From a virus: a stretch of 40,546 nucleotides of DNA. A program made the translations under genes and the position numbers. This document shows, piece by piece, positions 12,028 through 28,753 of this stretch. Below the pieces are notes generated by a model that saw only the letters and a list, made by a program, of their open reading frames with translations, searched no databases and was not told the origin of the DNA. The stretch's first letter is position 1. Every line of letters begins with the position of its first letter. The stretch lies in the IMG/VR virus record IMGVR_UViG_3300042569_001848, positions 1 to 40,546 of that record; one strand, given 5' to 3'.

Positions 12028-12048
12028 TGGATGAGGGTAGGAGACAGC

Positions 12049-12504
12049 ATGCCAAAGGCAAAGCAATCAGCAAGCAGTGAGGGCCTGACGCCCAAGGAAC
12101 AGATGTTCATTGCCGAGTACCTGATAGACGGTAACGGCACCCGTGCGGCGCTGGCCGCTGGCTACGTGGCAAGCAATGCGCGCAAGTCAGCATCTGAAGC
12201 GCTGAAGCGGCCACGCGTTCAAGCCGCTCTGAAGGCTGCCAAGGCCAAGCTGCTGAACAAGCTGGAGCTGTCGGCGGCGAAGGTGCTGGAGGATATCGAG
12301 CGGATCTCCAACAAAGCCGAGAGGGCCCGCGAGTTCAGTGCAGCGCTCAAGGGCAAGGAGTTGCTGGGCAAGCATCTGGCGCTGTTCACCGAGCGCCATG
12401 AGCTGACCGGCAAGAACGGCGGCCCGATTGAGACGAAGCGCAGCGCAGCCGAGTTCACCGACGACGAGTTGGCGCTGATCGCGGCAGGCAAGGCGGGGCA
12501 ATGA
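12049..12504 (+). CDS. terS: Terminase small subunit, 151 aa
   Basis: ATG 12049 (MPKAKQSASS) has AGGAG six bases upstream; an upstream in-frame ATG at 12031 has no such site. GLTPKEQMFIAEYLIDGNGT, RAALAAGYVASNARKSASEA and RPRVQAAL are the Terminase_2 (XtmA-like) helix-turn-helix region. The rest is helical (LSAAKVLEDIERISNKAERA) and ends in an acidic tail. It recognises the packaging site and guides the large subunit. Its stop overlaps the large-subunit start (ATGA). Confidence 0.87.
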   Translation: MPKAKQSASSEGLTPKEQMFIAEYLIDGNGTRAALAAGYVASNARKSASEALKRPRVQAALKAAKAKLLNKLELSAAKVLEDIERISNKAERAREFSAALKGKELLGKHLALFTERHELTGKNGGPIETKRSAAEFTDDELALIAAGKAGQ

Positions 12505-14006
12505 GCTTGGCCCCAGAGCAGGCGGCGGCGATCTTGTTGGAGCGGCGCAAGGCTCGCATCGACTTGGTGACCTACGCAAGCCGGGTGCCGGTACCGGGCT
12601 CGCCATTGAACGAAGAGGAGAGCGCCTCGCGCATTCCGCTGATCGAAAGCCAACAGGCCGACCATCACCGGCTGATTCTTCGGGAGATGCAGCGGTGCAT
12701 GCAGACGCCGCACGGCCGGCTGATGATCATGGCGCCGCCTGGCTCAGCCAAGAGCACCTATGCGACGGTTGTGGCGCCGTCTTGGTACCTGGGCAATCAT
12801 CCAGACCGGCGGGTGATCCTGGCCAGCTACGGCGGCGACCTGGCGCGGCGGCATGGCCGGCGAACCCGCCAGTTGCTGCGCTCTGCTGAGTCCTCGGGAA
12901 TCCTTCAGGCCACGATTGCTGACGACAGCCGCGCTGCTGACGAGTTCGGGCTGACGAATGGCAGTGAGTACATCGCGTGCGGGATCATGGCCGGGGTGAC
13001 CGGTAACCGCGCCCACGGCATCGTGATTGATGACCCGATCAAGGGCCGAGAGGCGGCAGACAGCCAGATCATCAGAGACCGGACCTATGCAGCCTACGAG
13101 GATGACCTGCTCACGCGCTTGATTCCGGGCGGCTGGGTGGTGGTGATTCAGACCCGATGGCATGAAGACGACCTGGCCGGGCGCATCCTCCCGTCAGATT
13201 GGGCGGGCGAGTCGGGCGACATCAAGTGCAGGGATGGCAACGTGTGGCGCGTGATGTGCTTGCAGGCTGAGTGCCAGACGCACACGGACCCGGTAGGGCG
13301 CTCGATTGGTGACATGCTTTGGCCGCAGTGGTTCGACCGGCGGCATTGGGATCAGTTCCGGCTGAACCGCCGCACATGGTCAAGCCTGTATCAGCAGCGG
13401 CCAGCGCCCGATGAGGGCATCTTGTTCCGCAAAGACGACATGGCCGGCTACGAGGTGGCGCCAGCAGGCCTGCGGATCATTGGCGCAAGTGATTACGCCG
13501 TGACGCCGGACGGTGGCGACTGGACCGAACATGGCGTGGCCGGTGTTGGAGCGGACGGCTCTGTCTACGTGCTGGACTGGTGGCGCGGGCAAGTTGGCCC
13601 CGAGGTCTGGATAGAGCGGCAGATCGACATGATTGCCCGCTGGAGCCCGCTGGCTTGGTTTGGCGAGGCTGGGCCGATCAGGCGGGCGACCGAGGGCACG
13701 CTGCGGCGGCGCATGACGGAGCGGGAGGCGCCGTGCCGCATGGAGTGGCTGCCATCGATCACCGACAAGGCCACACGCGCGCAGCCGATCATTGCAACGG
13801 CTGGCATGGGCCGGCTGTTCTGGCCCAAGGCCGCATGGGTGCCAGAGCTGCAGCGGCAGTGCTTGGTGTTCCCTGCTGGGCAGCCGGATGATGGCGTGGA
13901 CACGCTCTCCCTGCTCGGGCGCGGGGCGCAGACGCTGGGCAGGCCGCGCGGTGCGGTTTCCAGCGCAGACCCGCTGCCTATGGTCAGCCCGTTCGCTCGC
14001 CGCTAA
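12501..14006 (+). CDS. terL: Terminase large subunit (ATPase and nuclease), 501 aa
   Basis: The N-terminal ATPase has Walker A MAPPGSAKST at about 77-86, Walker B HGIVIDDP near 172-179 and a coupling-type motif VVVIQTRWHEDDL near 213-225. The C-terminal RNase H-like nuclease starts near IIGASDYAVTPDGGDWTEH, with the first metal aspartate in SDYAV. It pumps DNA into the prohead and cuts it; with the P22-like head genes, headful packaging is likely. The length is normal for the Terminase_6 group. The stop codon TAA is part of the -10-like box of the leader that follows. Confidence 0.92.
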   Translation: MSLAPEQAAAILLERRKARIDLVTYASRVPVPGSPLNEEESASRIPLIESQQADHHRLILREMQRCMQTPHGRLMIMAPPGSAKSTYATVVAPSWYLGNHPDRRVILASYGGDLARRHGRRTRQLLRSAESSGILQATIADDSRAADEFGLTNGSEYIACGIMAGVTGNRAHGIVIDDPIKGREAADSQIIRDRTYAAYEDDLLTRLIPGGWVVVIQTRWHEDDLAGRILPSDWAGESGDIKCRDGNVWRVMCLQAECQTHTDPVGRSIGDMLWPQWFDRRHWDQFRLNRRTWSSLYQQRPAPDEGILFRKDDMAGYEVAPAGLRIIGASDYAVTPDGGDWTEHGVAGVGADGSVYVLDWWRGQVGPEVWIERQIDMIARWSPLAWFGEAGPIRRATEGTLRRRMTEREAPCRMEWLPSITDKATRAQPIIATAGMGRLFWPKAAWVPELQRQCLVFPAGQPDDGVDTLSLLGRGAQTLGRPRGAVSSADPLPMVSPFARR

Positions 14007-14122
14007 ACTGCGCGCATCGTTCGATTGAGGCCCTTTGCGCCTCGGTCCGCTGAGTAGATGCGCCGCCAGCAGCGCCCTACGCGAGCCCCACGCGGCCCGC
14101 CAGCTACTCAGGACAGGGCGCC
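14004..14122 (+). promoter_or_regulatory. Structured leader RNA element, copy 1
   Basis: A -10-like TAAACT (14004-14009) is followed by GCGCGCATC. Then comes a 9-bp hairpin GATTGAGGC/GCCTCGGTC (14023-14047), the segment CGCTGAG, and a hairpin GCGC-CGCCAGCA-GCGC (14060-14075). GCTG at 14049-14052 can pair with CAGC in the loop (14067-14070). CTGAGTAG (14050-14057) is instead fully complementary to CTACTCAG (14104-14111), which abuts the ribosome site AGGA (14110-14113) of the gene at 14123, so the two pairings exclude each other. The copy at 26208 keeps the structure with changed stems. Complementarity is observed; switching is inference. Confidence 0.6.
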
Positions 14123-14626
14123 ATGCCGACGATCAACCCCAACAGCTCGCAGACCGTGAGGCTTGCCGCAGGAAGCCGCTTGCGCTTCGTGGCCAGTGGT
14201 TCCGGCGCTGCAATCCTTGGCCCAGGCCCTGGCGCCGGCCAGAGCTTTAGCCTCGGCACCGGCGACACGGTTATCGGGCCGTTCACCTCAGACCGAGACA
14301 TCTACATCAGCGCGGTGCTTGCCTTGCAGTACACGGTGATGTCCCTCGCATCGGACCGATACAACGAAGACGGGTCCATTGAGGCGGCGACGGACAGTAG
14401 CGGCGCAAGCCTGACCGGAGAAGAAGGATTGACCCTCTCACTTGGCGGCTCTCTTGGCCTTTCTGGTGTCACCTATGACGGCTCAAACCGCGTGGTCGGG
14501 TTCGCTCTGCGGGGGATCACCTACACCGTCGCATACACCTCCACAACCATCACGATCACCGGCAGCAACGGGTTTTCGCGGGTTGTGACGCTTGATGGCT
14601 CCAGCCGCGTGATTGGGGTGAGCTGA
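14123..14626 (+). CDS. Gly/Ser-rich beta protein downstream of RNA element, 167 aa
   Basis: MPTINPNSSQTVRLAAGSRL... is rich in Gly, Ser and Thr with alternating hydrophobics throughout, typical of a surface beta structure such as a decoration or fibre-like protein. The N-terminal 80 residues (RLRFVASGSGAAILG, DIYISAVLALQYTVM) may form a small sandwich. The second half, DRYNEDGSIEAAT and TYDGSNRVVGFALRGITY, looks like a short repeat of RVxG strands (NRVVGF, SRVIGV). It is the first gene of the unit that begins with leader copy 1. The ribosome site is AGGA nine bases upstream. No family named. Confidence 0.65.
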   Translation: MPTINPNSSQTVRLAAGSRLRFVASGSGAAILGPGPGAGQSFSLGTGDTVIGPFTSDRDIYISAVLALQYTVMSLASDRYNEDGSIEAATDSSGASLTGEEGLTLSLGGSLGLSGVTYDGSNRVVGFALRGITYTVAYTSTTITITGSNGFSRVVTLDGSSRVIGVS

Positions 14627-14627
14627 G

Positions 14628-16964
14628 ATGCCGGCCACCGTCATTGCAACTCAGAAGGTCGCCGGGGCGTCGGGCGGAACCACCCCAGCGTTTAACAGCA
14701 CGGGCGCGAACTGCATTGCGGTTTGGCTGGCATATGGTGGCACGCCAACAGTCACCGACAACCAGGGCAACACCTACACGGCAGGGGCTGCAAGCACCAA
14801 CACAGTAGCGGGGCGGTGGTACTACTGTCTAAACGCTACGGTCAATGCAAGCCACACCGTCACCATTGGCGGCGGTTCTGTTGTCGCGTCTTGCGTGGTT
14901 TATGCACTGGCCGGCATTGCTACCACTGCGGCCTATAGCTCACCCGGTGGCACTTCCTTCAGTGGCGCAACTTCTGATGCGTTTGGCGTCGATGTAACGC
15001 CCCCGGAGAATGATTGCATCGTTTTGTTTGGCCTGGGCGTCGAAACCCCAACAATCAGTGGTGTAGCGGGGGCGAATGGCTGGACAGTTGACCAGTGGAC
15101 TAGTGGCGTCGGCGGCACCTATTACGGCTCCATAGTCGCCCGCAAGATTCAAACGACTGTTGCCACAGTGCCGGCTGCGGAAACGCTTGCGACATGGACT
15201 GGCCCGGTCGGCGGCGTCAACGTCTGCGCCATCTTCAAGAGCCAGCCCGCAGGCGGTGGCCTGACCATCTCGACTCCCGTAAGGTTCGAGATGCACCAGC
15301 GCAGCGGCACGACCGGCAGCATTCAAATTTCAGGCTCTGTCACCGGCTCGACCGAAGACATTGAAGCAAGCTTTAACGGCGGCGCTTACGTCACCATCGC
15401 CACGGCTGTTGCCCCCGGGCCATTCAGCGGCACGTTGACCGGCCAAGCACAGGGGCAGGGCACGCTCACAGTGCGCAAACGAGTCACCATCGCGGAATCG
15501 GCCACAGTGCTGGATGTCGGCATCGGTGATATGTTGGTAGTCGGTGGCGATTCAATCAGTGACGGACGGGGCACAAACCCGCAGGCATACACGCACGGCT
15601 CCCTGAAAGCTACGCGCTTTGTCTCTGGCGCTTGGTCTGAGTTGATTGAATCAGGCGCAAACACCGGCAGTCATTGGCCCATCCTTGCCACGCGCATCAT
15701 GGCCGACCAGGGTGTGCCCGTTGCGTTCATCCGCACTGGCGTGGGTAGCACTGACGTAAGCGGCAGCAACAACCAGTGGGCCAAGCCGAACTCTGCCTAT
15801 TCGGGCATGACCACGGCGGCGACGAACTCGACCGCAGCGAGCGTGCGCGGCGTGCTGATGCACCTCGGGCCAAACGCAGTCGTGAACGCCAGCACGATCA
15901 GCAAGGCGACTTACAACGCGGCAATCGACACCCTGGCAAGCAATCTGGGCGCCGACATCGCGGGCGCGCCGAAGCTGCACCTTGGCATCTTTGGCGAAGT
16001 CAGCACCGGCTCACCTCCTGACCGTGTTGCAGCGTTGAACAACCTGCGCGGCGCAATCTTGGAAGCGCATGGCGACAACGCCAACGTGTTGCCCGGCCCT
16101 GTGCTGATTGAGCTGGACTACACCGATGGGGTTCACCCACTGAGCGACACGCAATTGCAAGCGGTGGCGAACCGCTGGTGGATTGCGCTCAAGCAATCGC
16201 TCTATGCGGGCAGCGGTGGGCGCGGTCCTCGGCTTTCCTCGGCAACGTGGAACGCAGGCCGCAATCAGCTTACGGTCACGTTTGACCGTGCCTTGAAGAC
16301 GGGCCGCACGCACGACTTGCAGCCTTGGGCCATCAGCGACAACGGTAGCGCGATGACGGTCAGCAGCATCGCCTACGGTGGCGCGGCGACACAGCTAGTC
16401 ATCACCACCAGCGCGGCGGCGGTTGGCCCAGCCGGAACGACCACGTTTACGTTCGCGGGTGGTGACACTGCTGTCGGGCGCGTGGTGCCCACCTCTGACG
16501 ACATCACGCTTCCTGGCGGCGCTGGCGTTACGCAGATTCCAGCGGAGCCGATCTATACGGCAGCCGTGGGTGAGGCTGGATCTCCGGCAGTCACCACGAA
16601 CCCGAGCAATCAGACTGTCACCGCAGGCAATACAGCCACCTTCACGGCAGCAGCTACCGGCACGCCAACTCCTACGATCGCATGGGAGCGCAGCACGAAC
16701 GGCGGCGGAGCTTGGTCACCCATCGGCGGCGCCACCAGCGCCAGCTACACCACGCCAGCGACGACCGTAACCGGCGGCAGCGCCAACAACGCAGACCAGT
16801 ACCGCGCTGTTTTCACGAACACCAATGGCACAGCTACGACATCGGCAGCGGTGCTGACCGTGAATGCGTCGGCCCCTCCGCCTCCACCACCGCCCCCAAG
16901 CGGCTCTGCAAGCGCGCCAATCATTGGCATTACCGCTGCTGGGCAATTGGTCGTTTTGATCTAA
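14628..16964 (+). CDS. SGNH/GDSL hydrolase with Ig-like domain, 778 aa
   Basis: Residues 1-200 are a beta-rich N-terminal region. From about 300 an SGNH hydrolase is visible: GGDSISDG with the serine at 309, GVGST as the likely block II, LGPN with the block III asparagine, and DGVHP with Asp500 and His503 completing the triad. About 640-745 is an Ig-like domain (TNPSNQTVTAGNTATFTAAA, then IAWERSTNGGGAWSPI), followed by eight prolines and a short hydrophobic end. It probably removes acetyl groups from surface polysaccharide while attached to the virion. Between terminase and portal is an unusual place for such a gene. Confidence 0.75.
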   Translation: MPATVIATQKVAGASGGTTPAFNSTGANCIAVWLAYGGTPTVTDNQGNTYTAGAASTNTVAGRWYYCLNATVNASHTVTIGGGSVVASCVVYALAGIATTAAYSSPGGTSFSGATSDAFGVDVTPPENDCIVLFGLGVETPTISGVAGANGWTVDQWTSGVGGTYYGSIVARKIQTTVATVPAAETLATWTGPVGGVNVCAIFKSQPAGGGLTISTPVRFEMHQRSGTTGSIQISGSVTGSTEDIEASFNGGAYVTIATAVAPGPFSGTLTGQAQGQGTLTVRKRVTIAESATVLDVGIGDMLVVGGDSISDGRGTNPQAYTHGSLKATRFVSGAWSELIESGANTGSHWPILATRIMADQGVPVAFIRTGVGSTDVSGSNNQWAKPNSAYSGMTTAATNSTAASVRGVLMHLGPNAVVNASTISKATYNAAIDTLASNLGADIAGAPKLHLGIFGEVSTGSPPDRVAALNNLRGAILEAHGDNANVLPGPVLIELDYTDGVHPLSDTQLQAVANRWWIALKQSLYAGSGGRGPRLSSATWNAGRNQLTVTFDRALKTGRTHDLQPWAISDNGSAMTVSSIAYGGAATQLVITTSAAAVGPAGTTTFTFAGGDTAVGRVVPTSDDITLPGGAGVTQIPAEPIYTAAVGEAGSPAVTTNPSNQTVTAGNTATFTAAATGTPTPTIAWERSTNGGGAWSPIGGATSASYTTPATTVTGGSANNADQYRAVFTNTNGTATTSAAVLTVNASAPPPPPPPPSGSASAPIIGITAAGQLVVLI

Positions 16965-16973
16965 CTGAGCGCC

Positions 16974-19028
16974 ATGACCAAACCCAAAGCCCAACGCCTC
17001 GCCGAGCTGCATTCCGCAGCGCTCACCGAGTTCGACGAGATTCAGGCCGCTGTGCGCGAGGAGCGCATGCAGTGCCTAGAGGACCGGCGCTTCTACTCAA
17101 TTGCAGGGGCCCAATGGGAAGGGCCGCTGGGTGAAGCCTTCGAGAACAAGCCCCGGCTGGAGTTCAACAAGGTGCACTTGGCGGTGATTCGCATCGTCAA
17201 CGAGTACCGCAACAACCGCATCACCGTCGATTTCCAGCCGCGCGACGGCCAGACCGACGACCGCCTGGCCGATGTGTGCGACGGGCTCTATCGGGCCGAT
17301 GAGCAGCGCAGCACGGCGAATGAGGCCTATGACACCGCGTTCGAAGAGGGCGCGGCCGGTGGCATTGGGGCATGGCGCCTGCGGGCATGCTATGAGGATG
17401 AAGACGACGACGACGACCAGCGCCAGCGGATCGAGATTGAACCGATCTTTGACGCTGATTCGACCGTGTTCTTTGACCTGGGCGCCAAGCGCCAAGACAA
17501 GGCCGACGCCAAGCGCTGCTATGTGCTGACGCCCTACACGCACGCAGCCTACAAAGAGGAGTTCGGCGACGACCCGACGACCTGGCCCAAGGAGATTCAG
17601 CGCACCCAGTTCGACTGGTGCACCGCTGACCTGGTGTGGGTGTGCAAGCGCTACAGCGTGGAAGAGGTCACGGAGCTGGTGATCTCGTTCCAAGGCCTTG
17701 ACCCCGACGCCAAGCCGATGAAGGTCAAGCAGTCGGAGCTGGATGCTGATCCGGACATGCTGGACGAGCTGATGGCCACGGGATTCCGCGAAGTCGGTCG
17801 CAAGCGGGTCAAGCGCCGCGCTGTGTTCTGCCACATCCTGAGCGGTGGCAAGGTTCTGGAAGAGTGCGGGCGCATCCCCGGCAAGCACATCCCCATCGTG
17901 ATGTTCTTCGGCAAGCGCTGGGTCATTGATGGGGTGGAGCGCTGCATGGGCCATGTGCGCTTGGCGAAGGATGCGCAGCGCCTGCAGAACCTGCTGATGT
18001 CGTGGCTGGCCGAGATGGCGGCCCGGTTCGACGTCGAGAAGCCCATCCTCACGCCTGAGCAGATCGCGGGGCATGCGGTGATGTGGGCAGAAGACACGGT
18101 CAAGAAATACCCGTACTTGCTCATCAACCCGGTGACCGACGAAAACGGGCAGCGCATGCCCGCGGGGCCGGTGGCGTACACCAAGGCTCCAACGCTGCCG
18201 CCGGCAATGGCTGCTCTCGCGCAGCTCGCGGAGCAGGCCTTGCAAGACTTGTTGGGCAATCAGCAGGCCGGCGAGCAGTTGCAGCCGAACATGAGCGGCA
18301 AGGCCGTGGAGCTGATTCAGAACCGTCTGGACATGCAGGTGTTTATCTACATGAGCAACTTGGCCAAGAGCATGAAGCGCTCGGGCGAGATTTGGCTGTC
18401 CATGATGCGCGATCTGGTGGTTGAGCCAGAGCGCCGCATGAAGACGGTCAGCTCAAGCGGCGAGGCCGGGTCCGTGGTGGTTAATCGCCCGAGCTATGAC
18501 CCCGAGACGGCCTCCGAGGTGGTCGAGAACGATCTGAGCAAGGCGACCTTCGAAGTTGCGGTTGATGTGGGCCCGAGCAGCTCCAGCCGCCGCGCCGCGA
18601 CCGTACGGGCGCTAACCGGAATGATGCAACTCACGCAAGACCCGGAGACGCTGGCCGTGCTGAGCGGGCTGGCCATGATGAACATGGAGGGCGAGGGCAT
18701 CGCGGATGCGCGCACCTACTACCGCCGCAAGATGGTTCGCATGGGCGTCATCAAGCCGACCGACGAAGAGAAGGCAGAAATAACCGCCGAACAGCAGAAC
18801 GCGCCGCCTGACCCGCAGAGCCAGTACCTGATGGCCGCCGCTGAGCAGGCCCAAGCCGATGCGGCGAAGAAGCGGGCCGACACGGTGCAGTCCATCGCAA
18901 GCGCTGACCTCAAACGGGCCCAAGCCAGCAAGACCCTTGCCGAAACCGAGGGCGCGGCGGGGGATCGAATGATCGCAACCGCTCAGGCGCTGCATTCAAT
19001 GCTCAGAATGCCATCAGGTGCGCAATGA
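16974..19028 (+). CDS. P22-type portal protein, 684 aa
   Basis: The whole chain follows the P22 gp1 family: RRFYSIAGAQWEG near the start, RLEFNKVHLAVIRIVNEYRN, ITVDFQPRDG, DTAFEEGAAGGIGAWRL, an acidic loop EDEDDDDDQRQRIEIEPIFD and WLAEMAARFDVEKPILTPEQ. The last 100 residues are a long Ala/Gln-rich helix that would form the internal barrel. Twelve copies make the ring for DNA entry and tail attachment. P22 portal has 725 residues, close to this length. The start at 16974 has no clear ribosome site, so the N-terminus is less certain than the rest. Confidence 0.9.
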   Translation: MTKPKAQRLAELHSAALTEFDEIQAAVREERMQCLEDRRFYSIAGAQWEGPLGEAFENKPRLEFNKVHLAVIRIVNEYRNNRITVDFQPRDGQTDDRLADVCDGLYRADEQRSTANEAYDTAFEEGAAGGIGAWRLRACYEDEDDDDDQRQRIEIEPIFDADSTVFFDLGAKRQDKADAKRCYVLTPYTHAAYKEEFGDDPTTWPKEIQRTQFDWCTADLVWVCKRYSVEEVTELVISFQGLDPDAKPMKVKQSELDADPDMLDELMATGFREVGRKRVKRRAVFCHILSGGKVLEECGRIPGKHIPIVMFFGKRWVIDGVERCMGHVRLAKDAQRLQNLLMSWLAEMAARFDVEKPILTPEQIAGHAVMWAEDTVKKYPYLLINPVTDENGQRMPAGPVAYTKAPTLPPAMAALAQLAEQALQDLLGNQQAGEQLQPNMSGKAVELIQNRLDMQVFIYMSNLAKSMKRSGEIWLSMMRDLVVEPERRMKTVSSSGEAGSVVVNRPSYDPETASEVVENDLSKATFEVAVDVGPSSSSRRAATVRALTGMMQLTQDPETLAVLSGLAMMNMEGEGIADARTYYRRKMVRMGVIKPTDEEKAEITAEQQNAPPDPQSQYLMAAAEQAQADAAKKRADTVQSIASADLKRAQASKTLAETEGAAGDRMIATAQALHSMLRMPSGAQ

Positions 19029-19061
19029 TGAAGCGCGCAATGGTTGTTTGGAGCTTCAAAG

Positions 19062-19091
19062 TTGCTTGAAATAGGTGTTTGTCGCTACGAT
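19062..19091 (+). promoter_or_regulatory. Candidate promoter before the scaffold gene
   Basis: TTGCTT (19062-19067), an 18-base spacer and TACGAT (19086-19091) lie in the 101-base gap between portal and scaffold, a stretch clearly richer in A and T than its surroundings. Transcription would start near 19098, about 30 bases before ATG 19130. It would boost scaffold and coat, the two proteins needed in greatest number. Confidence 0.5.
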
Positions 19092-19129
19092 TGAGCCTAC
19101 ACAAGCCGCAATACGCCGAAAGTCCACAC

Positions 19130-20059
19130 ATGCCATCCATCGATCTACCCGCTGATGTCGAAGTGCTTGATGCTGACGCTGTAGGCGAGGCGGATGCAGC
19201 CTTGGGCATGCCGGATCAATCCTCCGAAGAGGGCGATTCAGAGGCTGGCGCTGTTGTTGCGGGCACAGAGACCGGTGCTGCCGCTGATGGCGATGGCGAG
19301 GACGGATCAGAAGTCGTCATCACCTTGGGCGGCGAGCAGCCTGCCGATGATGCTGAGCAACGCGCCGCGCCTGATTGGGTGCGCGATCTGCGCAAGGCGA
19401 ACCGGGAGAAGGATCGCCGCATCCGTGAGCTTGAACAGCAAGTTGCAACCGCAAAGCCAGCGCCATCTGCCACGGTGGTGGGTGCCAAGCCAACGCTAGA
19501 GGCTTGCGACTTCGATACCGACAAGTACGACAGCGAGCTGGCCGGCTGGTACGAACGCAAGGGCAAGGCAGAGCGCGAAGTCGCTGAGCGCGAGCGGGCC
19601 GAAGAGGCGCAGCGCGAGGCATGGGGCGCCAAGGTCAAGGCCTACAAGGCCGCAGGCGCTGCCCTCAAGGTGCGCGACTTCGAAGACGCTGAGGCCATCA
19701 CCAAGGACATCCTGAGCGAAGTTCAGCAAGGGATTCTGGTGGCCGGGCTCTCGAACCCTGCCGCCATGGTTTACGCCCTGGGCAAGAACCCCACGAAGGC
19801 GCGCGAGTTGTCCGCAATGACCGACCCAGTTCAATTCGCGGTGGCCATTGGCAAGCTGGAGGCCAGCATGAAGATTGCGCCACGCAAGGCCGCCAGCACC
19901 ACGCCAGAGCGCGAGCTGCGATCCGGTGCCGCTGGCGTCTCTGCCGTCGATACAACCTTGGACCGCTTGTATGCGGAAGCGGCCAAGACGGGTGATGTTT
20001 CAAAGGTCGTTGCCTACAAGGCAGCGAAGCGAGTGAAGGAAAAGGCAAGCGCCACCTGA
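19130..20059 (+). CDS. Scaffolding protein, P22 gp8-like, 309 aa
   Basis: I start at ATG 19130 (MPSIDLPADVEVLD); a TTG at 19079 lies upstream of the predicted transcription start. The layout is that of a phage scaffold: an acidic N-terminal 90 residues (SSEEGDSEAGAVVAGTETGA), a long helical middle (WVRDLRKANREKDRRIRELE and KAEREVAERERAEEAQREAW) and a basic C-terminus (AAKRVKEKASAT) that can contact the coat. P22 gp8 has 303 residues. It sits between portal and coat as in P22. It directs prohead assembly and then leaves. The identification rests on position, length and charge pattern more than on motifs. Confidence 0.8.
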   Translation: MPSIDLPADVEVLDADAVGEADAALGMPDQSSEEGDSEAGAVVAGTETGAAADGDGEDGSEVVITLGGEQPADDAEQRAAPDWVRDLRKANREKDRRIRELEQQVATAKPAPSATVVGAKPTLEACDFDTDKYDSELAGWYERKGKAEREVAERERAEEAQREAWGAKVKAYKAAGAALKVRDFEDAEAITKDILSEVQQGILVAGLSNPAAMVYALGKNPTKARELSAMTDPVQFAVAIGKLEASMKIAPRKAASTTPERELRSGAAGVSAVDTTLDRLYAEAAKTGDVSKVVAYKAAKRVKEKASAT

Positions 20060-20212
20060 ACGGCGCCGGCTGGTAGCGCTGCCGTCACAGCGCTTCGGAT
20101 TCGCCCACCTTACGGGTAGTGAAGTGAGGCCCCCGTCCGGCCCTGAGCGGATGAGTCAAGCAACGCGGCGCAAGTCGCACACGCCAACTCATCTACGCAA
20201 GGAGCCGCCATC
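20060..20212 (+). promoter_or_regulatory. Intergenic leader of the coat gene with a strong hairpin
   Basis: A 153-base gap in an otherwise tightly packed region. AGCGCTG-CCGTCA-CAGCGCT (20074-20093) is a perfect 7-bp hairpin with no T run, so it is not a normal terminator. CCCACCTTACGGG (20105-20117) is a second small one. AAGGAG (20199-20204) is the ribosome site for coat ATG 20213. It may stabilise the coat message or mark a processing site. It does not share the conserved segments of the leaders at 14004 and 26208. Confidence 0.45.
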
Positions 20213-21484
20213 ATGGCCTCGTTCAATAAGCAAGAAATCGTTCTCTTTGAGAAGGCCCTCGAAGGCTTTCAAGACGCCCTCATCATCAGCCGCCTGTTCG
20301 GCAAGTTCAACGTTGACGACACCGCCAGCGAACGAACTGCAGACCTGTTCTGGCGCCCTCAGCCGTACATCATTCAGTCCTTCTCGGGCAATGATCAATC
20401 GGCAAACTTTGGCCGCAACCACACGCAATTGAGCGTGCCAACCTCGCTGGGCTTCCAGCGCGCCGTGCCGATGGTGCTGACCGCCCGCGAGCTGCGCGAC
20501 GAGCAGCAACGCGAGCGCCTGAGCAAAGCGGCAATGCAGCGCTTGGCCAGTGACATCAACGTGAGCTGCAGCGACTTGGCTGCGCTCTCGGGCACCATCT
20601 TCATCAAGCGCAGCGCTGCCGCGTCGGGCTTTGATGATGTGGCCGCCATTGACACCGCCATGAACCGCCTGGGCATCCAGATGGATGATCGTGTGGCCTG
20701 CTACTCGTCCGGCGACTACAACAATATGGCGAGCAACTTGGCAGGCCGTGGCACCTTGACTCCCAAGGCGCTGACCGCCTACGAGCGCGCAGCCATCGGC
20801 ATGGTGGCGGGCATTGACACCTACAAGCTGGACTACGCCTATCGCCTGACTGCTGCTGCAGGTGTTGGCGTCACGGTCAACGGTGCCAACCAGCGCTTCG
20901 TGCCGCGTGCCACCAGCACGGCGGGCACTGGCGAGACCCAGAACGTGGACAACCGCTTCCAGAACTTGACCATCACCGTCACCAGCGGCACGGTCAAGGT
21001 GGGCGATGCGTTCACCATCGCGGGCGTCAACGAGGTGCACCACATCACCAAGGCCGATACCGGGGTGCTGAAGACCTTCCGCATTACCGCCATCGTCTCG
21101 GGCGGCGGCGGTTCGGGCGTAGTCACCATCAGCCCACCGATCATTGCGGCCGACTCCTCGCCAACGGATGCGGAGGTTCAGTACCGCAACGTGACGGCAA
21201 CGCCAGCCAACGGCGCGGCGATCGTGTTCCAGAACACGGCAGCGGGCTCTTGCAACCCCTTCTGGCACCGCAGCGCGATGGAAATCATGCCCGGCCGCCT
21301 GAAGCCGCAAGAGAACGCGGGCATGGACGTGCTCACCGGCACCACGGATCACGGCATTCCGGTGCTGATGACCCGTCAGGGCGCCATCGGCGATCTGTCC
21401 ACCCGCTACCGCTTTGACGTGCTGTACGGGCTGGTGAACCTGCAGCCGCAGATGAGCGGCATTGAGATGTTCAGCCAGCCTTGA
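20213..21484 (+). CDS. Major capsid protein, P22 coat family, 423 aa
   Basis: MASFNKQEIVLFEKALEGFQ, DALIISRLFGKFNVDDTASE, ADLFWRPQPYIIQSFSGNDQ and VPTSLGFQRAVPMVLTAREL are those of P22 gp5-type coats; P22 gp5 has 430 residues. The middle (about 220-320: FQNLTITVTSGTVKVGDAFT, then VVTISPPIIAADSS) would hold the inserted I-domain-like beta barrel. The C-terminal QGAIGDLSTRYRFDVLYGLV closes the core fold. It builds the icosahedral shell with the scaffold. AAGGAG lies eight bases upstream of ATG. Confidence 0.92.
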   Translation: MASFNKQEIVLFEKALEGFQDALIISRLFGKFNVDDTASERTADLFWRPQPYIIQSFSGNDQSANFGRNHTQLSVPTSLGFQRAVPMVLTARELRDEQQRERLSKAAMQRLASDINVSCSDLAALSGTIFIKRSAAASGFDDVAAIDTAMNRLGIQMDDRVACYSSGDYNNMASNLAGRGTLTPKALTAYERAAIGMVAGIDTYKLDYAYRLTAAAGVGVTVNGANQRFVPRATSTAGTGETQNVDNRFQNLTITVTSGTVKVGDAFTIAGVNEVHHITKADTGVLKTFRITAIVSGGGGSGVVTISPPIIAADSSPTDAEVQYRNVTATPANGAAIVFQNTAAGSCNPFWHRSAMEIMPGRLKPQENAGMDVLTGTTDHGIPVLMTRQGAIGDLSTRYRFDVLYGLVNLQPQMSGIEMFSQP

Positions 21485-21504
21485 TCGGCCTGAGCTGAAC
21501 CGAT

Positions 21505-21530
21505 GGCGGAGCCTTGAAAGAGGCTCCGCC
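21505..21530 (+). terminator. Strong hairpin after the coat gene (partial terminator)
   Basis: GGCGGAGCC-TTGAAAGA-GGCTCCGCC is a perfect 9-bp stem just after the coat stop, followed by TTGTGCATT. The T tract is poor, so it likely lowers rather than ends transcription, or protects the 3' end of the abundant coat message. Confidence 0.65.
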
Positions 21531-21557
21531 TTGTGCATTCAAGACGGAGTGAACACC

Positions 21558-21884
21558 ATGGACCAGTTCCCACAAATGCTCTACCGCGCTGGCGGACCCG
21601 AGCTGTTCGAAGGCAGCCGCTTCAGCACGGTCATCGTGCAAGACGAATCGGAACTTGAGGCCGCAATGGCTGGCGGTTGGCACGAGACTTGGGCTGCCGC
21701 CAAGCTGGCCGACCTGCCTGAGCCGCCACCAGCGCCAGCGCCCGAGGAAGACAGCATCAAGCCGCCAACTCGCGACGAGCTGGAGCAGAAGGCCAAAGAA
21801 CTTGGCATTGCCTTCCATCACAACACGGGCGACAAGAAGCTGGCTGATCTCATTGCCGCCAAGCTGGCCGAGCAGGGCGCCTGA
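21558..21884 (+). CDS. Small protein with SAP/HeH-like C-terminus, 108 aa
   Basis: The start ATG 21558 (MDQFPQMLYRAGG) has GGAG eight bases upstream. The first half, GPELFEGSRFSTVIVQDESE followed by GWHETWAAA, is a short domain common in proteins behind phage coat genes. A Pro/Ala/Glu linker (LPEPPPAPAPEE) leads to TRDELEQKAKELGIAFH and NTGDKKLADLIAAKLAEQG, which has the helix-extension-helix pattern of HeH/SAP or Rho-N-like DNA- or RNA-binding motifs. It may be a minor head protein or head-DNA contact. Confidence 0.72.
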   Translation: MDQFPQMLYRAGGPELFEGSRFSTVIVQDESELEAAMAGGWHETWAAAKLADLPEPPPAPAPEEDSIKPPTRDELEQKAKELGIAFHHNTGDKKLADLIAAKLAEQGA

Positions 21885-21886
21885 GC

Positions 21887-22366
21887 ATGTGGACCAAGCG
21901 CGAGCTGATCAACGAAGCGTTTGCTGAGCTCGCGCTGGCAGGGCATCAGTTCGACCTAGAGCCTGAAGAGATGCAAACCGCGCTGCGCCGCATGGATGCC
22001 ATGGTGGCAGCCTGGGAAGCCAAGGGGATTCGCATCGGCTACGCACTGCCAAGCGGCCCCAGCAGCTCAGACCTTGACGACGCCAGCGGCATTCCAGATG
22101 CGGCAGTGCAGGCGGTGTTTCTGGGTTTGGCTGTGCAGCTCGCCCCTGGCTTTGGAAAGACGCTGCCGCCAGAGACCCGCAAGTCAGCCCGAGATGCGTA
22201 TGACGCGCTCTTGATCTCTGCAGCGCAGCCGCCAGAGCAACAACTGACGAGCAACCTCCCCATGGGTGCCGGCTTCAAGCGCCGTGAGCGCATCTTTTTC
22301 CCCAATCCAGACACCAGCCCCGTGCAGCTCACGCAAGGCGGCGATCTGAACCTTCTCCCGGAGTAG
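21887..22366 (+). CDS. Tail accessory factor, P22 gp4-like, 159 aa
   Basis: MWTKRELINEAFAELALAGH, then MQTALRRMDAMVAAWEAKGI and IGYALPSGPSSSDLDDASGI follow the P22 gp4/phage head-tail connector pattern; P22 gp4 has 166 residues. It binds under the portal ring and stabilises packaged DNA while making the platform for gp10 and the tailspikes. In P22 gp4 also has peptidoglycan-hydrolase activity, which I cannot judge here. It keeps the P22 gene order coat, gp4, gp10. Confidence 0.85.
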   Translation: MWTKRELINEAFAELALAGHQFDLEPEEMQTALRRMDAMVAAWEAKGIRIGYALPSGPSSSDLDDASGIPDAAVQAVFLGLAVQLAPGFGKTLPPETRKSARDAYDALLISAAQPPEQQLTSNLPMGAGFKRRERIFFPNPDTSPVQLTQGGDLNLLPE

Positions 22367-22370
22367 CACC

Positions 22371-22826
22371 ATGGCCATCGAAAGACTCAACGCGGGGGCG
22401 ATCGGCGAGGCCGCTCAGGTGCCGTTCTATGACCCCTCGCAAGGGCAAGACCGCCGCGCATCTGTGACGGATCTGGTGGCGCTGGTGCGAGAGCTCACCA
22501 GCTCCGGCGCACAGCCCATCACGCAGTACGCCGCGCCCAACGCGACCGGCTTCAGCGTAACCATTGCGCCACCGACACCGGGCGCCAGCATGTGGCTGCT
22601 GCTGACCCCTGCCGCTGGCTATGCGGCCGGAACGGTCGTTCTGCCGCCGCAGGCCGCATGCGTTGACGGCCAAGAGCTGCAAGTTAGTTCGACCCAGGCT
22701 GTGACGGCGTTGACCATCAATGGCAGCGGTTCGACCGTCAACGGTGGGCCTACTGCGCTCACGGCCAATTCATTTTTCCGCCTGCGCTTCGATGGGGTCT
22801 TCAAGGCCTGGTACCGCGTCGGCTGA
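22371..22826 (+). CDS. Hypothetical virion-region protein, 151 aa
   Basis: MAIERLNAGAIGEAAQVPFY and the following SQGQDRRASVTDLVALVREL give a short helical start; the rest is beta-rich (TQYAAPNATGFSVTIAPPTP, VSSTQAVTALTINGSGSTV, FFRLRFDGVFKAWYRVG). This layout recurs in small proteins between connector and DNA-stabilisation genes of podoviruses and is probably a structural or decoration protein. GGAG precedes ATG 22371. Confidence 0.65.
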   Translation: MAIERLNAGAIGEAAQVPFYDPSQGQDRRASVTDLVALVRELTSSGAQPITQYAAPNATGFSVTIAPPTPGASMWLLLTPAAGYAAGTVVLPPQAACVDGQELQVSSTQAVTALTINGSGSTVNGGPTALTANSFFRLRFDGVFKAWYRVG

Positions 22827-22855
22827 TCAAGCCCCCCAACCCAAGGAACTGCATC

Positions 22856-23182
22856 ATGGTCAACAGCCCATTCAATCCCTACTACGGGCGCACCGTGTCC
22901 GTGGCCTCCGTTGCTGGCGCCGCGCAAGCGACCGTTGAATCGACGGCCAAGCAACTGCTGCTCACCAACGTGGGAACGGTGCTTTGCTTCGTCCGCGTTC
23001 GGCCCAACGGCAACAACACAGTGGCCAGCGTGGCGGACTTGCCGCTACTCCCCAACAGCCAGCGCATCATTACGCGCTCGGGCAATGACAGCGCCGCGCA
23101 AGGCCAGGTCACTGTGGACGTCTTCTCGGCTGCCACCGGCTCTACGGTCTACATCACGCCCGGCGAAGGCGTAGGCCCCTAA
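22856..23182 (+). CDS. Hypothetical beta-rich structural protein, 108 aa
   Basis: MVNSPFNPYYGRTVSVASVA, VESTAKQLLLTNVGTVLCFV and a C-terminal TVDVFSAATGSTVYITPGEG predict a small beta sandwich. Such short proteins (xxLLLTNVGTxxCFVRV) are frequent next to the tail genes of podoviruses. AAGGAA stands before ATG 22856. A minor head or tail component by position; function unknown. Confidence 0.65.
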   Translation: MVNSPFNPYYGRTVSVASVAGAAQATVESTAKQLLLTNVGTVLCFVRVRPNGNNTVASVADLPLLPNSQRIITRSGNDSAAQGQVTVDVFSAATGSTVYITPGEGVGP

Positions 23183-23199
23183 GAAGGCGCGGGCTATTC

Positions 23200-24603
23200 G
23201 TGCCACAAATCCCGATCCTGAGCGGCATCTATGCCGATGCCAACGCGGAGTTCCGGACCCGATATCCGCGCAACATGCGACCGGTGCCAAAGAGCCAAGG
23301 CATCTCGGCGGGCTACCTGCGGCCGGCTGATGGCATTGAGCAGACCGGCACATCGGCGGGGGTGGCGCGCGGCGCCATCGTCTGGAACGACATCTGCTAC
23401 CGCGTGCAAGGCACAAAGCTGCAGCGCGTTGCTTCTGACGGCAGCATTGAGACGCTGGGCGATGTGGGCGACGGCGGGCCGGTCTCAATGGATTACAGCT
23501 TCGAGCGGCTGGCCATCGCAAGCGGCGGGAGGCTCTTCTACTGGAACGGCGCCACGCTGAGCCAAGTCACCGATCCAGACCTCGGCACAGCCTTGGATGT
23601 GATCTTCGTTGACGGCTACTTCATGACGACCGATGGCACCAGCCTGGTTGTCACAGAGCTGAGCGACTCGACCCAAGTCAACCCGCTGAAGTACGGCAGC
23701 GCAGAAGCCGATCCGGACCCCATCAAGGGCATGCTGCTCAAGCGCCATGAGGTGTACGCGGTAGGCCGGCACACCATCGAAGTGTTTGAGAACGTGGGCG
23801 GGCAGCTCTTCCCATTCGCCCGAATTGAGGGCGCGCAGATTCCACGCGGCGCACTTGGTACGCACGCCTTCTGCTGGTATGTCGATGGGCTGGCCTTCCT
23901 TGGCGGCGGCCGTGGCGAGTCGCCTGCTGTGTGGCTGGGCCAGAACGGGGCCAGCGCCAAGATCAGCACGCGCGAGATCGAGCAGATCTTGGCCGGCTAC
24001 ACCGTCGCCGAGCTGGCAGCGGTTGTGATGGAGACGCGCACCGATCAAGGCCATCAAGACCTGATCTTGCACCTGCCAAACGTCAGCCTTGTGTACGACG
24101 CGGCAAGCTCTGCCGCCTTGCAGTCGCCGGTCTGGTTCGAGCTGTCCAGCGGCTTGAATGGGCTCTCTGCCTATCGCGCCCGGCACCTGGCATGGTGCTA
24201 CGGCAAGTGGCTCTGCGGAGATCCAACCAGCTCAGCGCTTGGCGTGCTCACGCCAGCCGTTGCGAGCCACTACGGGCAGGTGGTCGGGTGGGCCTTTGGC
24301 ACGGCGGTGCTCTTCAATGAGAACCTGGGAGGCGTGGTGCACGCCGTTGAACTTGCGTGCCTCACTGGCCGGGTTGCCCCTGGCGTTGACCCGGTTGTGT
24401 GGACCTCGCATTCATTCGACGGCGAGACCTGGAGCCTGGAGCGGCCAGTACGCGCCGGCAGCATCGGGCAGCGCAACCAGCGCTTGCAGTGGCGCCGGCA
24501 GGGCCAGATCCGCCAGATGCGGTTCCAGCGCTTCCGGGGCACCAGCGATGCCAGCATCTCAGTGGCCCGGCTCGACATGACGATTGAGCCGTTGAATGCC
24601 TGA
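23200..24603 (+). CDS. Packaged-DNA stabilisation protein, P22 gp10-like, 467 aa
   Basis: GTG 23200 starts MPQIPILSGIYADANAEFRT. RYPRNMRPVPKSQGISAGYL, GVARGAIVWNDICYRVQGTK, LTVVTELSD-like strands, HEVYAVGRHTIEVFENVG and GALGTHAFCWYVDGLAFLGG match the P22 gp10 family, and the length is nearly the same (472). Hexamers plug the tail channel below gp4 and keep DNA inside the head; the tailspikes attach around them. The gene ends eight bases into the next frame. Confidence 0.88.
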   Translation: MPQIPILSGIYADANAEFRTRYPRNMRPVPKSQGISAGYLRPADGIEQTGTSAGVARGAIVWNDICYRVQGTKLQRVASDGSIETLGDVGDGGPVSMDYSFERLAIASGGRLFYWNGATLSQVTDPDLGTALDVIFVDGYFMTTDGTSLVVTELSDSTQVNPLKYGSAEADPDPIKGMLLKRHEVYAVGRHTIEVFENVGGQLFPFARIEGAQIPRGALGTHAFCWYVDGLAFLGGGRGESPAVWLGQNGASAKISTREIEQILAGYTVAELAAVVMETRTDQGHQDLILHLPNVSLVYDAASSAALQSPVWFELSSGLNGLSAYRARHLAWCYGKWLCGDPTSSALGVLTPAVASHYGQVVGWAFGTAVLFNENLGGVVHAVELACLTGRVAPGVDPVVWTSHSFDGETWSLERPVRAGSIGQRNQRLQWRRQGQIRQMRFQRFRGTSDASISVARLDMTIEPLNA

Positions 24604-25153
24604 CAGCCCAGCCCTCACCACGCGCCGGCTATCGCGCGACAAGCTGCGGGAGTTCCTGGGCGACCGGCATGAGCTGATCCGAGCCTTCGAGAGCTACATC
24701 GATGCAATCAGCACCCAGATGCCCGACGCCATCACCCTGGCGCAGCAAACAGCGCAACGGGCTGAAGCTCTGGCGGGTCAGGCGCTCATGCAACAGCGTG
24801 AGCCAGAAGACGACATGCCAAGCCCGCCGGGTGGCAATGGTTCAGCGGCATCAAGCGCACCCAGCCTCACAGTGGGTGCGGCCGAGGTGGACTTTGGCGC
24901 CGCAGCAAAAGACGTCGCAACGGTCACGGTCACCGGTCAAGTTGGCGTCATCCCCAGCACCACGGTCATGGCTTGGATTACCGGCGCTGACAGCGACACC
25001 ACGCCAGACAACCCGCAGCACGCGCACGAGCTCGCTGCGGCTCTCATCTCTGTAACCCCCATCAACATCGTCACTGGCGGATTCACCCTCTCTGCGCGCT
25101 GCCCATCTTTGGCAAGCGGGCGGTTTCGGGTCCGCTGGGCTTGGAGTAACTGA
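24596..25153 (+). CDS. Hypothetical virion protein, 185 aa
   Basis: The N-terminal 60 residues (RDKLREFLGDRHELIRAFES, YIDAISTQMPDAITLAQQTA) are helical, followed by a Pro/Gly/Ser linker, and the C-terminal 90 residues are beta-rich (SLTVGAAEVDFGAAAKDVAT, FTLSARCPSLASGRFRVRW). The two-part layout recurs in podovirus tail regions and suits a protein that anchors by a helix bundle and exposes a small beta domain. It overlaps the gp10-like gene by eight bases. Name unknown. Confidence 0.65.
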   Translation: MPDSPALTTRRLSRDKLREFLGDRHELIRAFESYIDAISTQMPDAITLAQQTAQRAEALAGQALMQQREPEDDMPSPPGGNGSAASSAPSLTVGAAEVDFGAAAKDVATVTVTGQVGVIPSTTVMAWITGADSDTTPDNPQHAHELAAALISVTPINIVTGGFTLSARCPSLASGRFRVRWAWSN

Positions 25154-25155
25154 CC

Positions 25156-25806
25156 ATGGGCTTTCCGATCTCCAACGGCACCACTGCCGGAGACCTTCGC
25201 GTCGAGGCCGACAAAGCCGCCGCACGCGTCATCGTGGTACCGCGTGGCAATGGCTACAGCGCATCCGGCGTCACGGGCACCGTGGCAGCCGCCCTCGGCG
25301 CCAACAGCGCAGTGTTTGCCATGCGACTGGACCCCGGCTCATCGGCTCGCGCCTACATCGACCGCGTGCGGCTGCAATACACCTGCCTAGTGGCGTTCAC
25401 TGTGCCGCTGACGGCTGGCCGCCGTCTGGCGCTGTTTCGGGGCTCTGGAGCCGCGACTGCGGGCGGCGCTTCCATGGGCGATGCGGTGCCAAAGCACACG
25501 ACACACCCTGCCAGCGAGTTCAACATCGGATCTGGCGGAGACCTGCGCATTGCGACCACGGGCGCGCTGACCGTGACCGGCATCACATGGGAGGCTCAGC
25601 CCATCGCGACCATGCCCCTGGTGCATGTGGGCAACGCCGGCAATTACGCTGAAGCGCTGTTTGAGTTCGCCGCATCGGAGAGCTACGAGGTGGTGCTTGA
25701 GCCTGGCCAAGTACTCGGCATCCGAAACCCCGCCGTCATGGATGCCGCCGGCACGTGGCAGCTCGGGGTAGGCGTGCAATGGCGCGAAGTCGCCGCTTAC
25801 AGCTAA
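25156..25806 (+). CDS. Hypothetical beta-rich virion protein, 216 aa
   Basis: MGFPISNGTTAGDLRVEADK, then VFAMRLDPGSSARAYIDRVR, LVAFTVPLTAGRRLALFRG and YEVVLEPGQVLGIRNPAVMD suggest a jelly-roll-like beta sandwich. Proteins with an LYxVRAG-like start, 200-230 residues long, are found in many tail clusters as adsorption or decoration components. ATG follows the previous stop by two bases. Confidence is good for the gene, low for the role. Confidence 0.66.
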   Translation: MGFPISNGTTAGDLRVEADKAAARVIVVPRGNGYSASGVTGTVAAALGANSAVFAMRLDPGSSARAYIDRVRLQYTCLVAFTVPLTAGRRLALFRGSGAATAGGASMGDAVPKHTTHPASEFNIGSGGDLRIATTGALTVTGITWEAQPIATMPLVHVGNAGNYAEALFEFAASESYEVVLEPGQVLGIRNPAVMDAAGTWQLGVGVQWREVAAYS

Positions 25807-25815
25807 GGGGCCGCC

Positions 25816-26181
25816 ATGCAAAACAAGCTTGTACGAATTGGCCCGCTGCAGCTCTTGGCCGCACTGGGAACCGACATCATCACCCTGCCAACAGTCAGCG
25901 GCGGCACCAATGTTTCGGCGCCTGGCTTGGTGCTGATCTTGAAGCACATCCGCATCGTGAACAGATCAGCCGGCGCTGCGACCTTCAGCCTTTGGCTTGG
26001 AGCTTCAGGAGCCAATGTGGCGGGCACAGAGGTGATCGGCCAAGGGCTCAGCGTGGCAGCCAACAGCGCGTTTGATTGGTACGGCCTGCTGCGCATTGAA
26101 GGCGCGGAAGCGCTGGTTGGCGGAGCGGGTACGGCCAACGCGCTGACCTTCCAAGCAGAGGGAGAGCTCGGCGTTTTGTGA
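25816..26181 (+). CDS. Hypothetical beta-sandwich protein, 121 aa
   Basis: MQNKLVRIGPLQLLAALGTD, then VSAPGLVLILKHIRIVNRSA, TFSLWLGASGANVAGTEVIG and FDWYGLLRIEGAEALVGGAG form regular beta strands. Proteins with the HIRIVNxSxxxxTFxLWLG pattern occur as small capsid- or tail-associated proteins in many phages. AGGGG precedes ATG 25816. It closes the transcript unit before the second structured leader. Confidence 0.68.
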   Translation: MQNKLVRIGPLQLLAALGTDIITLPTVSGGTNVSAPGLVLILKHIRIVNRSAGAATFSLWLGASGANVAGTEVIGQGLSVAANSAFDWYGLLRIEGAEALVGGAGTANALTFQAEGELGVL

Positions 26182-26207
26182 GGCTGGCGCGCACGCTGCG
26201 CGCTGCC
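26182..26207 (+). other. GC hairpin directly upstream of leader copy 2
   Basis: GCGCGC-ACGCT-GCGCGC (26187-26203), with GGC/GCC able to extend the stem on the outside, fills the space between the stop at 26181 and the -10-like TACAAT at 26208. It has no T run. It takes the place where a -35 box would be expected, so it may end or process the upstream message or bind a regulator. Confidence 0.5.
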
Positions 26208-26297
26208 TACAATGCGCGCCATCTCGACCAGTCTTCTACTGGTCCGCTGAGAAATTGAGCCGCCAGCAGCTCACGACCCCTCATCCGGGAGTGACGC
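26208..26297 (+). promoter_or_regulatory. Structured leader RNA element, copy 2
   Basis: TACAAT (26208-26213) and GCGCGCCATC are followed by a 7-bp hairpin GACCAGT-CTTCT-ACTGGTC (26226-26244), CGCTGAG, and TGAGC-CGCCAGCA-GCTCA (26256-26273). The hairpin sequences differ from copy 1 but pair equally well, while GGTCCGCTGAG and the loop are identical. GCTG (26246-26249) can pair with loop CAGC (26264-26267). A third hairpin, CAC..CCC/GGG..GTG, overlaps the ribosome site GGGAG (26287-26291) of the gene at 26298. The features are seen; ligand or switch function is inference. Confidence 0.6.
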
Positions 26298-26747
26298 ATG
26301 GGCACCGCGCCAAACCTCAGCGATGCGCTTCAAGCGCCGCAAAGCAACTCGCCAACACGCGAGCAAATCGACCGCTTGCAGGCTGCCATGTTGGCCATGC
26401 CGCAGGCGGACATCCCCGCAGAACACACCTTTGGCCCCGGCTTCTATGCGCGCACCATCCGCATTCAAGCCGGCACCGTGCTTGTGGGCAAGGTTCATTC
26501 GACCGAACACCTCTTCATCATCAGCAAGGGCGAAATTGCTCTGGCGACGGAAGACGGAACCCAGATCGTCAAGGCTCCATTCCAGACGGTATGCCGCCCG
26601 GGCTTGAAGCGAGTTGGTGCAGCAATTACCGATGTGGTTTGCACCAATATCCACCTCACAAACGAGACCGATCTTGAAGCGCTTGAGCGCCTCTTGATCG
26701 AGCCGGAGCCGATGCTTCAAGCCGCAGCCAAGGAGCGGCTGCAATGA
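26298..26747 (+). CDS. Cupin-like hypothetical protein under leader copy 2, 149 aa
   Basis: After a 40-residue helical start (LSDALQAPQSNSPTREQIDR) comes a region like a small cupin barrel: HTFGPGFYARTIRIQAGTVL, VGKVHSTEHLFIISKGEIAL and VKAPFQTVCRPGLKRVGAAI, with the GTVLVGKVHSTEHLFIISKG turn typical of cupins. The end (LEALERLLIEPEPMLQAAAK) is helical. Such phage cupin-like proteins occur near ejection genes; role unknown. SD GGGAG lies six bases from ATG. Its stop overlaps the next start. Confidence 0.7.
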   Translation: MGTAPNLSDALQAPQSNSPTREQIDRLQAAMLAMPQADIPAEHTFGPGFYARTIRIQAGTVLVGKVHSTEHLFIISKGEIALATEDGTQIVKAPFQTVCRPGLKRVGAAITDVVCTNIHLTNETDLEALERLLIEPEPMLQAAAKERLQ

Positions 26748-28752: not shown

Positions 28753-28753
28753 C

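Follow-up and report, generated by a model that had tools for sequence, protein, structure and literature searches.

A folded leader RNA with a pseudoknot, probably unlisted until now, at the head of late operons in P22-like phages

The autogenous translational operator of gene 32 in phages T4 and RB69 is a small pseudoknot of about 28 nt located 5' of the ribosome-binding site, and in T4 more than 40 nt of less structured, UUAAA-rich sequence come after the pseudoknot (PMC535899). Pseudoknots beside the Shine-Dalgarno (SD) sequence can also gate translation in riboswitches and ribosomal-protein leaders. Promoter-proximal RNA of a different kind is found in phage HK022, where putL and putR, each about 50-75 nt long, give two copies per phage, with putL just past its promoter; the put RNAs act in early transcripts and comprise two long stem-loops and a short RNA triplex (PMC9378689). 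The late genes of P22 are, by the textbook account, controlled by a Q protein at one late promoter.

The window analysed here, a linear virus record of 40,546 bases (G000), belongs to a P22-like phage in which two late leaders share an RNA element. As in the late control of P22 (gp23, qut, tR'), late virion genes in the same gene order are concerned. P22 relies for this on a single late promoter, a Q-type protein and a DNA site; in the carriers of the element, by contrast, promoters are found at terL/portal, ahead of the ejection genes or at both places, together with an RNA element. The evidence below makes it likely that this is a previously unlisted folded leader RNA present in many short-tailed P22-like phages.

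The two leaders of the window

The early region of the window contains repressor-like, weakly activator-like, RecT-like and exonuclease genes, and the late genes are listed in Table 1. The leaders, termed E1 and E2, occupy gaps of 116 bases each, between the end of terL at 14006 and a start codon at 14123, and between the end of an open reading frame at 26181 and a start codon at 26298. The gene behind E1 is followed by one for a 778-aa protein and then by the portal gene. The product of the gene behind E2 had been described as cupin-like and is re-read here as a short tail-fibre/adhesin-like protein; it is probably a virion protein, since it matches PHROGs families for short tail fibre and tail fibre adhesin.

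A preliminary description, made from sequence alone, had placed both leaders in gaps of more than 100 bases and had assigned to them -10-like boxes, a first hairpin of 9 bp and 7 bp with intact pairing, an identical GGTCCGCTGAG and an identical loop CGCCAGCA, and a second stem changed from GCGC/GCGC to TGAGC/GCTCA. All of these claims held, the -10-like boxes as sequence. The 11-mer GGTCCGCTGAG occurs without mismatch nowhere else in the window. The folding energies of the single copies are unremarkable (z of -0.4 and -1.3); the support for an RNA structure is comparative. A scan with the sigma-70 consensus found no -35/-10 pair in the GC-rich window, and E1 lacks a passing -35. The -10-like box of E1 overlaps the TAA stop codon of terL. 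The candidate anti-SD helix of E1 and S2 are mutually exclusive, and folding prefers a different overall structure.

Table 1. Positions of the leader features and neighbouring late genes in the window
Feature	Position	Strand	Basis or detail
Terminase small subunit	12031-12504		PHROGs/Pfam
Terminase large subunit (terL)	12501-14006		PHROGs/Pfam
E1 -10-like box TAAACT	14004-14009	+	Sequence; predicted +1 near 14016
E1 hairpin H1, 9 bp	14023-14047	+	14023-14031 with 14039-14047; pairing; covariation in 41 homologues
E1 pseudoknot stem S1, 5' strand GCUG	14049-14052	+	Pairs with 14067-14070; compensating changes in homologues
E1 hairpin 2 (S2)	14060-14075	+	GCGC 14060-14063, GCGC 14072-14075
E1 loop CGCCAGCA	14064-14071	+	Contains S1 3' strand CAGC 14067-14070
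E1 candidate anti-SD helix	14072-14121	+	GCGCCC 14072-14077 with GGGCGC 14116-14121; pairing in sequence only
Gly/Ser-rich protein, 167 aa; first gene behind E1	14123-14626	+	No family
P22-type portal	16974-19028		PHROGs/Pfam
P22 coat	20213-21484		PHROGs/Pfam
Head closure	23200-24603		PHROGs/Pfam
E2 -10-like box TACAAT	26208-26213	+	Predicted +1 at 26220-26221
E2 hairpin H1, 7 bp	26226-26244	+	26226-26232 with 26238-26244; sequence; covariation
E2 pseudoknot stem S1, 5' strand GCUG	26246-26249	+	Pairs with 26264-26267
E2 hairpin 2 (S2)	26256-26273	+	TGAGC 26256-26260, GCTCA 26269-26273
E2 loop CGCCAGCA	26261-26268	+	Contains S1 3' strand CAGC 26264-26267
E2 SD hairpin	26271-26294	+	TCAC 26271-26274/GTGA 26291-26294; CCC 26277-26279/GGG 26287-26289
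E2 SD GGGAG	26287-26291	+	Within SD hairpin
Short tail-fibre/adhesin-like protein; first gene behind E2	26298-26747	+	PHROGs phrog_12032, phrog_24280
gp7-like ejection gene	26744-27457		PHROGs/Pfam
gp20-like ejection gene	27460-28752		PHROGs/Pfam
gp16-like ejection gene	28709-30742		Clustering and gene order

Covariation and distribution of the element

A gapped pattern of linker and loop matched 54 viral stretches, about 25 of which are true homologues with the promoter, H1, linker, stem 2 and SD in common and a total length clustering at 26-28 nt. As about 25 of the 54 keep promoter, H1 and stem 2, the two leaders of the window are not a product of chance. Further homologues with compensating stem changes were sought and found, wider patterns bringing their number in IMG/VR to more than 100.

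In an alignment of 41 sequences of the window type (class A; alignment A1), H1, hairpin 2 and the pseudoknot are paired in 94.4% of cells against 87.3% in shuffled alignments, the covariation score is 0.197 against 0.072 +/- 0.008, and 33 cells carry double changes against 5.6; the pairing signal is lost when the helix partners are slid. The sequences of A1 were collected by patterns that fixed linker and loop, hence the constancy of both in this alignment is by construction. This bias was removed by fetching loci through portal and gp10 protein homology and only then scanning them for the element. Such loci gave the S1 variants ACUG/CAGU (L564, L579, L637, L642, L647, L688), GCCG/CGGC (L558, L682), ACCG/CGGU (L668, L672, L684) and, by way of a U-G pair, GCUG/CGGC (L590, L567). 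One of these scans demanded at least three of the four S1 pairs; its repeat dropped any pairing demand and required only the -10 geometry, an AG, a hairpin with an 8-nt loop and an SD. Every match at the element position then had the full 4/4 S1 register, and matches elsewhere had 0-3.

In the resulting comparison of 44 cores (alignment A7), S1 is paired in 100% of cells with none broken, and 10 double-change cells fall on two of its four pairs, while S2 is paired in 94.9% of cells with double changes at all four pairs; covariation is 0.311 against 0.133 +/- 0.014. Two interleaved helices, each with compensating changes, meet the criterion for an H-type pseudoknot. The changes from G-C to A-U and from U-A to C-G probably represent several events, because the flanks differ between lineages, albeit no tree was built. 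A few matches to the element pattern lack full S1 pairing (L379/L385, UCUG with CAGC). The structure is thus shown by sequence comparison, and it is very likely that the comparative evidence establishes both a structured RNA and its placement. The preliminary description had inferred a selected RNA structure, which is supported by covariation in H1, in hairpin 2 and in the pseudoknot that it had missed. Its separate invariants, linker and loop, have to be corrected, as the GCUG of the linker pairs with the CAGC in the loop of hairpin 2, and its two hairpins are refined to one optional 5' hairpin (H1) and an H-type pseudoknot. Ribosomal mimicry through GCCAGCAGC, which is present also in the 530 loop of 16S rRNA, was considered and rejected, since natural variants alter the common letters and keep S1 paired.

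Two bacterial contigs, from Comamonadaceae bacterium 2PF (L246) and Roseateles aquatilis CCUG 48205 (L273), carry the element, hence the hosts include Burkholderiales. Prophages with the element appear to be rare, as search model R1 matched only one of 399 genomes from the order to which Roseateles aquatilis belongs, namely the Roseateles genome. An assembled phage in GenBank, MW202867 (L529), has a diverged copy. Against annotated phages, neither megablast with 10 kb of the window nor blastn with the consensus element gave a convincing match, and models R1 and R2 found nothing convincing in HK022, P22, Sf6, PfAn1, sortsyn, VSN-002 and MW202475. The earlier statement that the element belongs to no known family held against Rfam 15, no family of which reached its gathering threshold in the window and six further element loci; a permissive Rfam search of three element loci returned only weak, unrelated matches elsewhere in the loci. 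No description of the element was found in the open-access literature searched, subscription papers being outside the scope.

Several individual loci show peculiarities of their own. L010 (about 2220-2280) and L021 have a partial second copy (GTCCGTCCGCTGAA) just 5' of the intact element, resembling a tandem duplication. In the Comamonadaceae contig (L246, 601-830) a perfect palindrome, AGAGGCCTAGGCCTCT, comes after the element, and the start of the ejection-type gene appears to lie more than 100 nt further on, unlike in the remaining leaders; a promoter-element-terminator reading of this locus was set aside and not used as evidence for antitermination, the T-run of the palindrome being only three long. 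MW202867 and MW202475 (L529, L531) are titled Myoviridae sp., yet look short-tailed because of their P22-like portal, coat and ejection genes. The former also contains a gene annotated as sigma-70 (7321-7743), and it is conceivable that a sigma factor made by the phage plays a part at late promoters.

Promoter geometry, placement and the Shine-Dalgarno region

The element occurs in two arrangements, the promoter geometry of which is shown by sequence comparison. Class A has the order -10, H1, GCUGAG, S2; in 34 of 47 homologues the end of the best -10 hexamer is located 9-13 nt upstream of H1, and H1 begins about 3-5 nt past the predicted +1. In class B, H1 is absent, a -35 with at least 4/6 consensus positions is found in 70 of 82 leaders, and in 69 of 82 S1 opens exactly 6 nt past the end of the -10, which places the predicted +1 (G or A) on the initial S1 base. 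Among phages without H1, a few carry about six additional nucleotides ahead of S1 (L324, L342, L367), and in a further set H1 is of unrelated sequence (e.g., L559, L683). The -35 at the class B E2 position (GATTGAC) seemingly overlaps the stop codon of the upstream gene.

The position of the element is likewise fixed, as shown by comparison. The E1 copy lies in the interval from terL to portal, directly or with one or two intervening genes, and the E2 copy just 5' of gp7-gp20-gp16, with or without one small gene. A search of 42 records with R1 gave two strong same-strand matches, roughly 10 kb apart, in most class A genomes and usually one match in class B genomes. Class B carries the ejection copy only and has a bare promoter at the E1 position, hence the element is inferred to be dispensable for portal expression in these phages. 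In class B the portal gene has a promoter of its own (L541-L612), with a TG-type -10 (TGGTGAGAAAAT, TGGTAGATAAT) that shares bases with the stop codon of terL; the leader behind it is only some 20-30 nt long and has no RNA element. In the surveyed genomes the element is found at operon heads only. Since the first genes behind it vary among phages, they do not point to one target protein. The genes behind the two leaders had been called unrelated, which can be refined, as in many phages the portal module follows one copy and the ejection-protein module the other; that the leaders head two late transcription units is supported, with the starts at 14016 and about 26220 still being predictions.

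A feature beyond the preliminary description is a further hairpin that usually encloses the SD, shown by the same comparative approach. A small Watson-Crick hairpin overlaps the SD in 81 of 95 non-redundant leaders; the figure for 580 further SD-bearing genes in these phages is 32%, and shuffling the upstream sequence gives 50.5 +/- 4.4 of 95. Right after S2, an outer helix (H3) encloses the SD: one of at least 4 bp is present in 29 of the 47 class A leaders, where exchanging the 3' parts yields 16.2 +/- 2.8, and one of at least 5 bp in 18 of 47, where the exchange yields 6.3 +/- 2.1; a looser test that admits any helix and GU pairs gives a weak signal. S2 and the start codon are separated by 17-47 nt (median 22) in class A and by 15-34 nt (median 20) in class B. 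Native leaders show no stronger competition of S2 with SD sequestration (0.482) than leaders with swapped downstream parts (0.446 +/- 0.046), and an alternative anti-SD helix, GCAGCUY/RAGCUGC, is evident in a single class B lineage without being general.

Possible functions and known systems

The element may be regarded as a cis-acting 5' leader RNA of late mRNAs. In the proposed mechanism, a sigma-70-type promoter would start the transcript at the structure or a few bases from it (the start being predicted), and the nascent RNA would fold H1 in window-type phages and then the H-type pseudoknot, with S1 GCUG/CAGC and an S2 of 4-5 bp, ending about 20 nt ahead of the start codon beside the small SD hairpin. 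An unknown host or phage factor would recognise the pseudoknot, or the pseudoknot would fold unaided, and it would set the ease of ribosome loading and the lifetime of the message, thereby controlling when or how strongly the portal and ejection operons are expressed. This post-transcriptional control of translation or message life is as likely to be right as wrong; the transcription start, the translational action, the factor and the direction of control are all inferred. It is consistent with the unbroken S1 covariation, the tight start spacing, the SD hairpin, the outer H3 and the placement at operon heads only. Against a factor stands the absence, at BLAST level, of a trans-acting protein family common to all carriers: only virion clusters are widespread, hence no dedicated conserved phage regulator was found, albeit fast-evolving ones could escape. 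Against a switch stands the S2/SD competition, which does not exceed that of swapped leaders.

The closest rival is passive armour of the 5' end, in which the structure would block decay from that end and give abundant late messages without a regulatory factor; we rate it as clearly less likely than not. 5' structure does affect bacterial mRNA decay. In favour of this explanation, the predicted +1 to +4 are paired in the 69 of 82 class B leaders with S1 6 nt past the -10, the first S1 base is nearly always a purine, with its change from G to A matched by C to U in the loop, and H1 of class A follows closely on the predicted +1. However, a plain hairpin would suffice for this purpose, and the conserved GAG after S1, the loop CC and the fixed SD spacing suggest more; class A also leaves a few 5' bases unpaired. 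Taking control and armour jointly, it is inferred to be likely that the element acts after transcription, on translation and/or message life.

A put-like antiterminator, the nascent RNA of which would bind RNA polymerase, carry it past terminators in the long late operons and replace Q, is unlikely. It would fit the position directly downstream of a promoter, as for putL of HK022 (PMC9378689), and at the head of long operons, as well as the lack of the Q families PF03589 and PF06530 (controls matched) in 25 carriers (G000, G001-G010, G012-G015, G017-G019, G021, G024-G026, G028, G030, G035). However, only 2 of 49 downstream segments of up to 9 kb have terminator-like sites (intrinsic only, Rho sites excluded), which weakens such a role; the tight start-codon spacing and the SD hairpin are unexpected for put, and neither model detects similarity to HK022. 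Post-transcriptional control is hence favoured over a put-like role, given the start spacing of about 20 nt, the enrichment of SD hairpins and the lack of intrinsic terminators.

A metabolite or ion riboswitch carried by phages would match the layout of a compact pseudoknot beside an SD hairpin, known from riboswitches, and the conserved core with variable stems, but is very improbable, as only 14-20 bases are conserved without an elaborate junction, the element stands solely in front of virion genes and Rfam has no match. It can be all but excluded that the hairpins are incidental to a chance repeat or to a feature working at the DNA level (for promoter activity, replication or packaging), since, although a promoter always adjoins the element, compensating changes in several helices keep pairing rather than sequence, and orientation and start-codon distance are fixed.

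Returning to post-transcriptional control, a bolder version is possible, in which the leader would be an RNA switch of a new class in phages: the first bases to be transcribed would close a pseudoknot with a downstream loop and so gate ribosome access. It is equally no more than a possibility that this switch serves as a late-timing device for the portal and ejection operons of Q-less P22-like phages and is sensed by a conserved host factor. A large and mostly uncultured P22-like group seems to rely on dedicated promoters and a conserved pseudoknot leader, with no Q protein from either tested family. Being compact, with natural compensating variants and two predictable positions, the element allows its role to be tested directly with reporters, and its presence can be used to flag late promoters and transcription starts when environmental phage genomes are annotated.

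Unlike the pseudoknot riboswitches and ribosomal-protein leaders, the element has no Rfam family at threshold, is carried by phages and precedes virion genes. With put of HK022 it shares a similar size, two copies per phage and, as regards putL, the promoter-proximal position; in contrast, no such pseudoknot has been described for put, put is not tied to a start codon, and the HK022 genome has no R1 or R2 match at E up to 1. In contrast to the T4 gene 32 operator, the element has its SD hairpin within about 20 nt and no stretch of UUAAA/UAAA repeats, occurs in up to two copies per genome, heads virion operons rather than a single-strand binding protein gene, and has no known binding protein (there being no binding data). 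Both are pseudoknots in phage mRNA 5' of a ribosome-binding site, a criterion met in layout only, without sequence comparison, and by analogy the T4 gene 32 pseudoknot operator may serve as the nearest functional analogue and precedent for the element.
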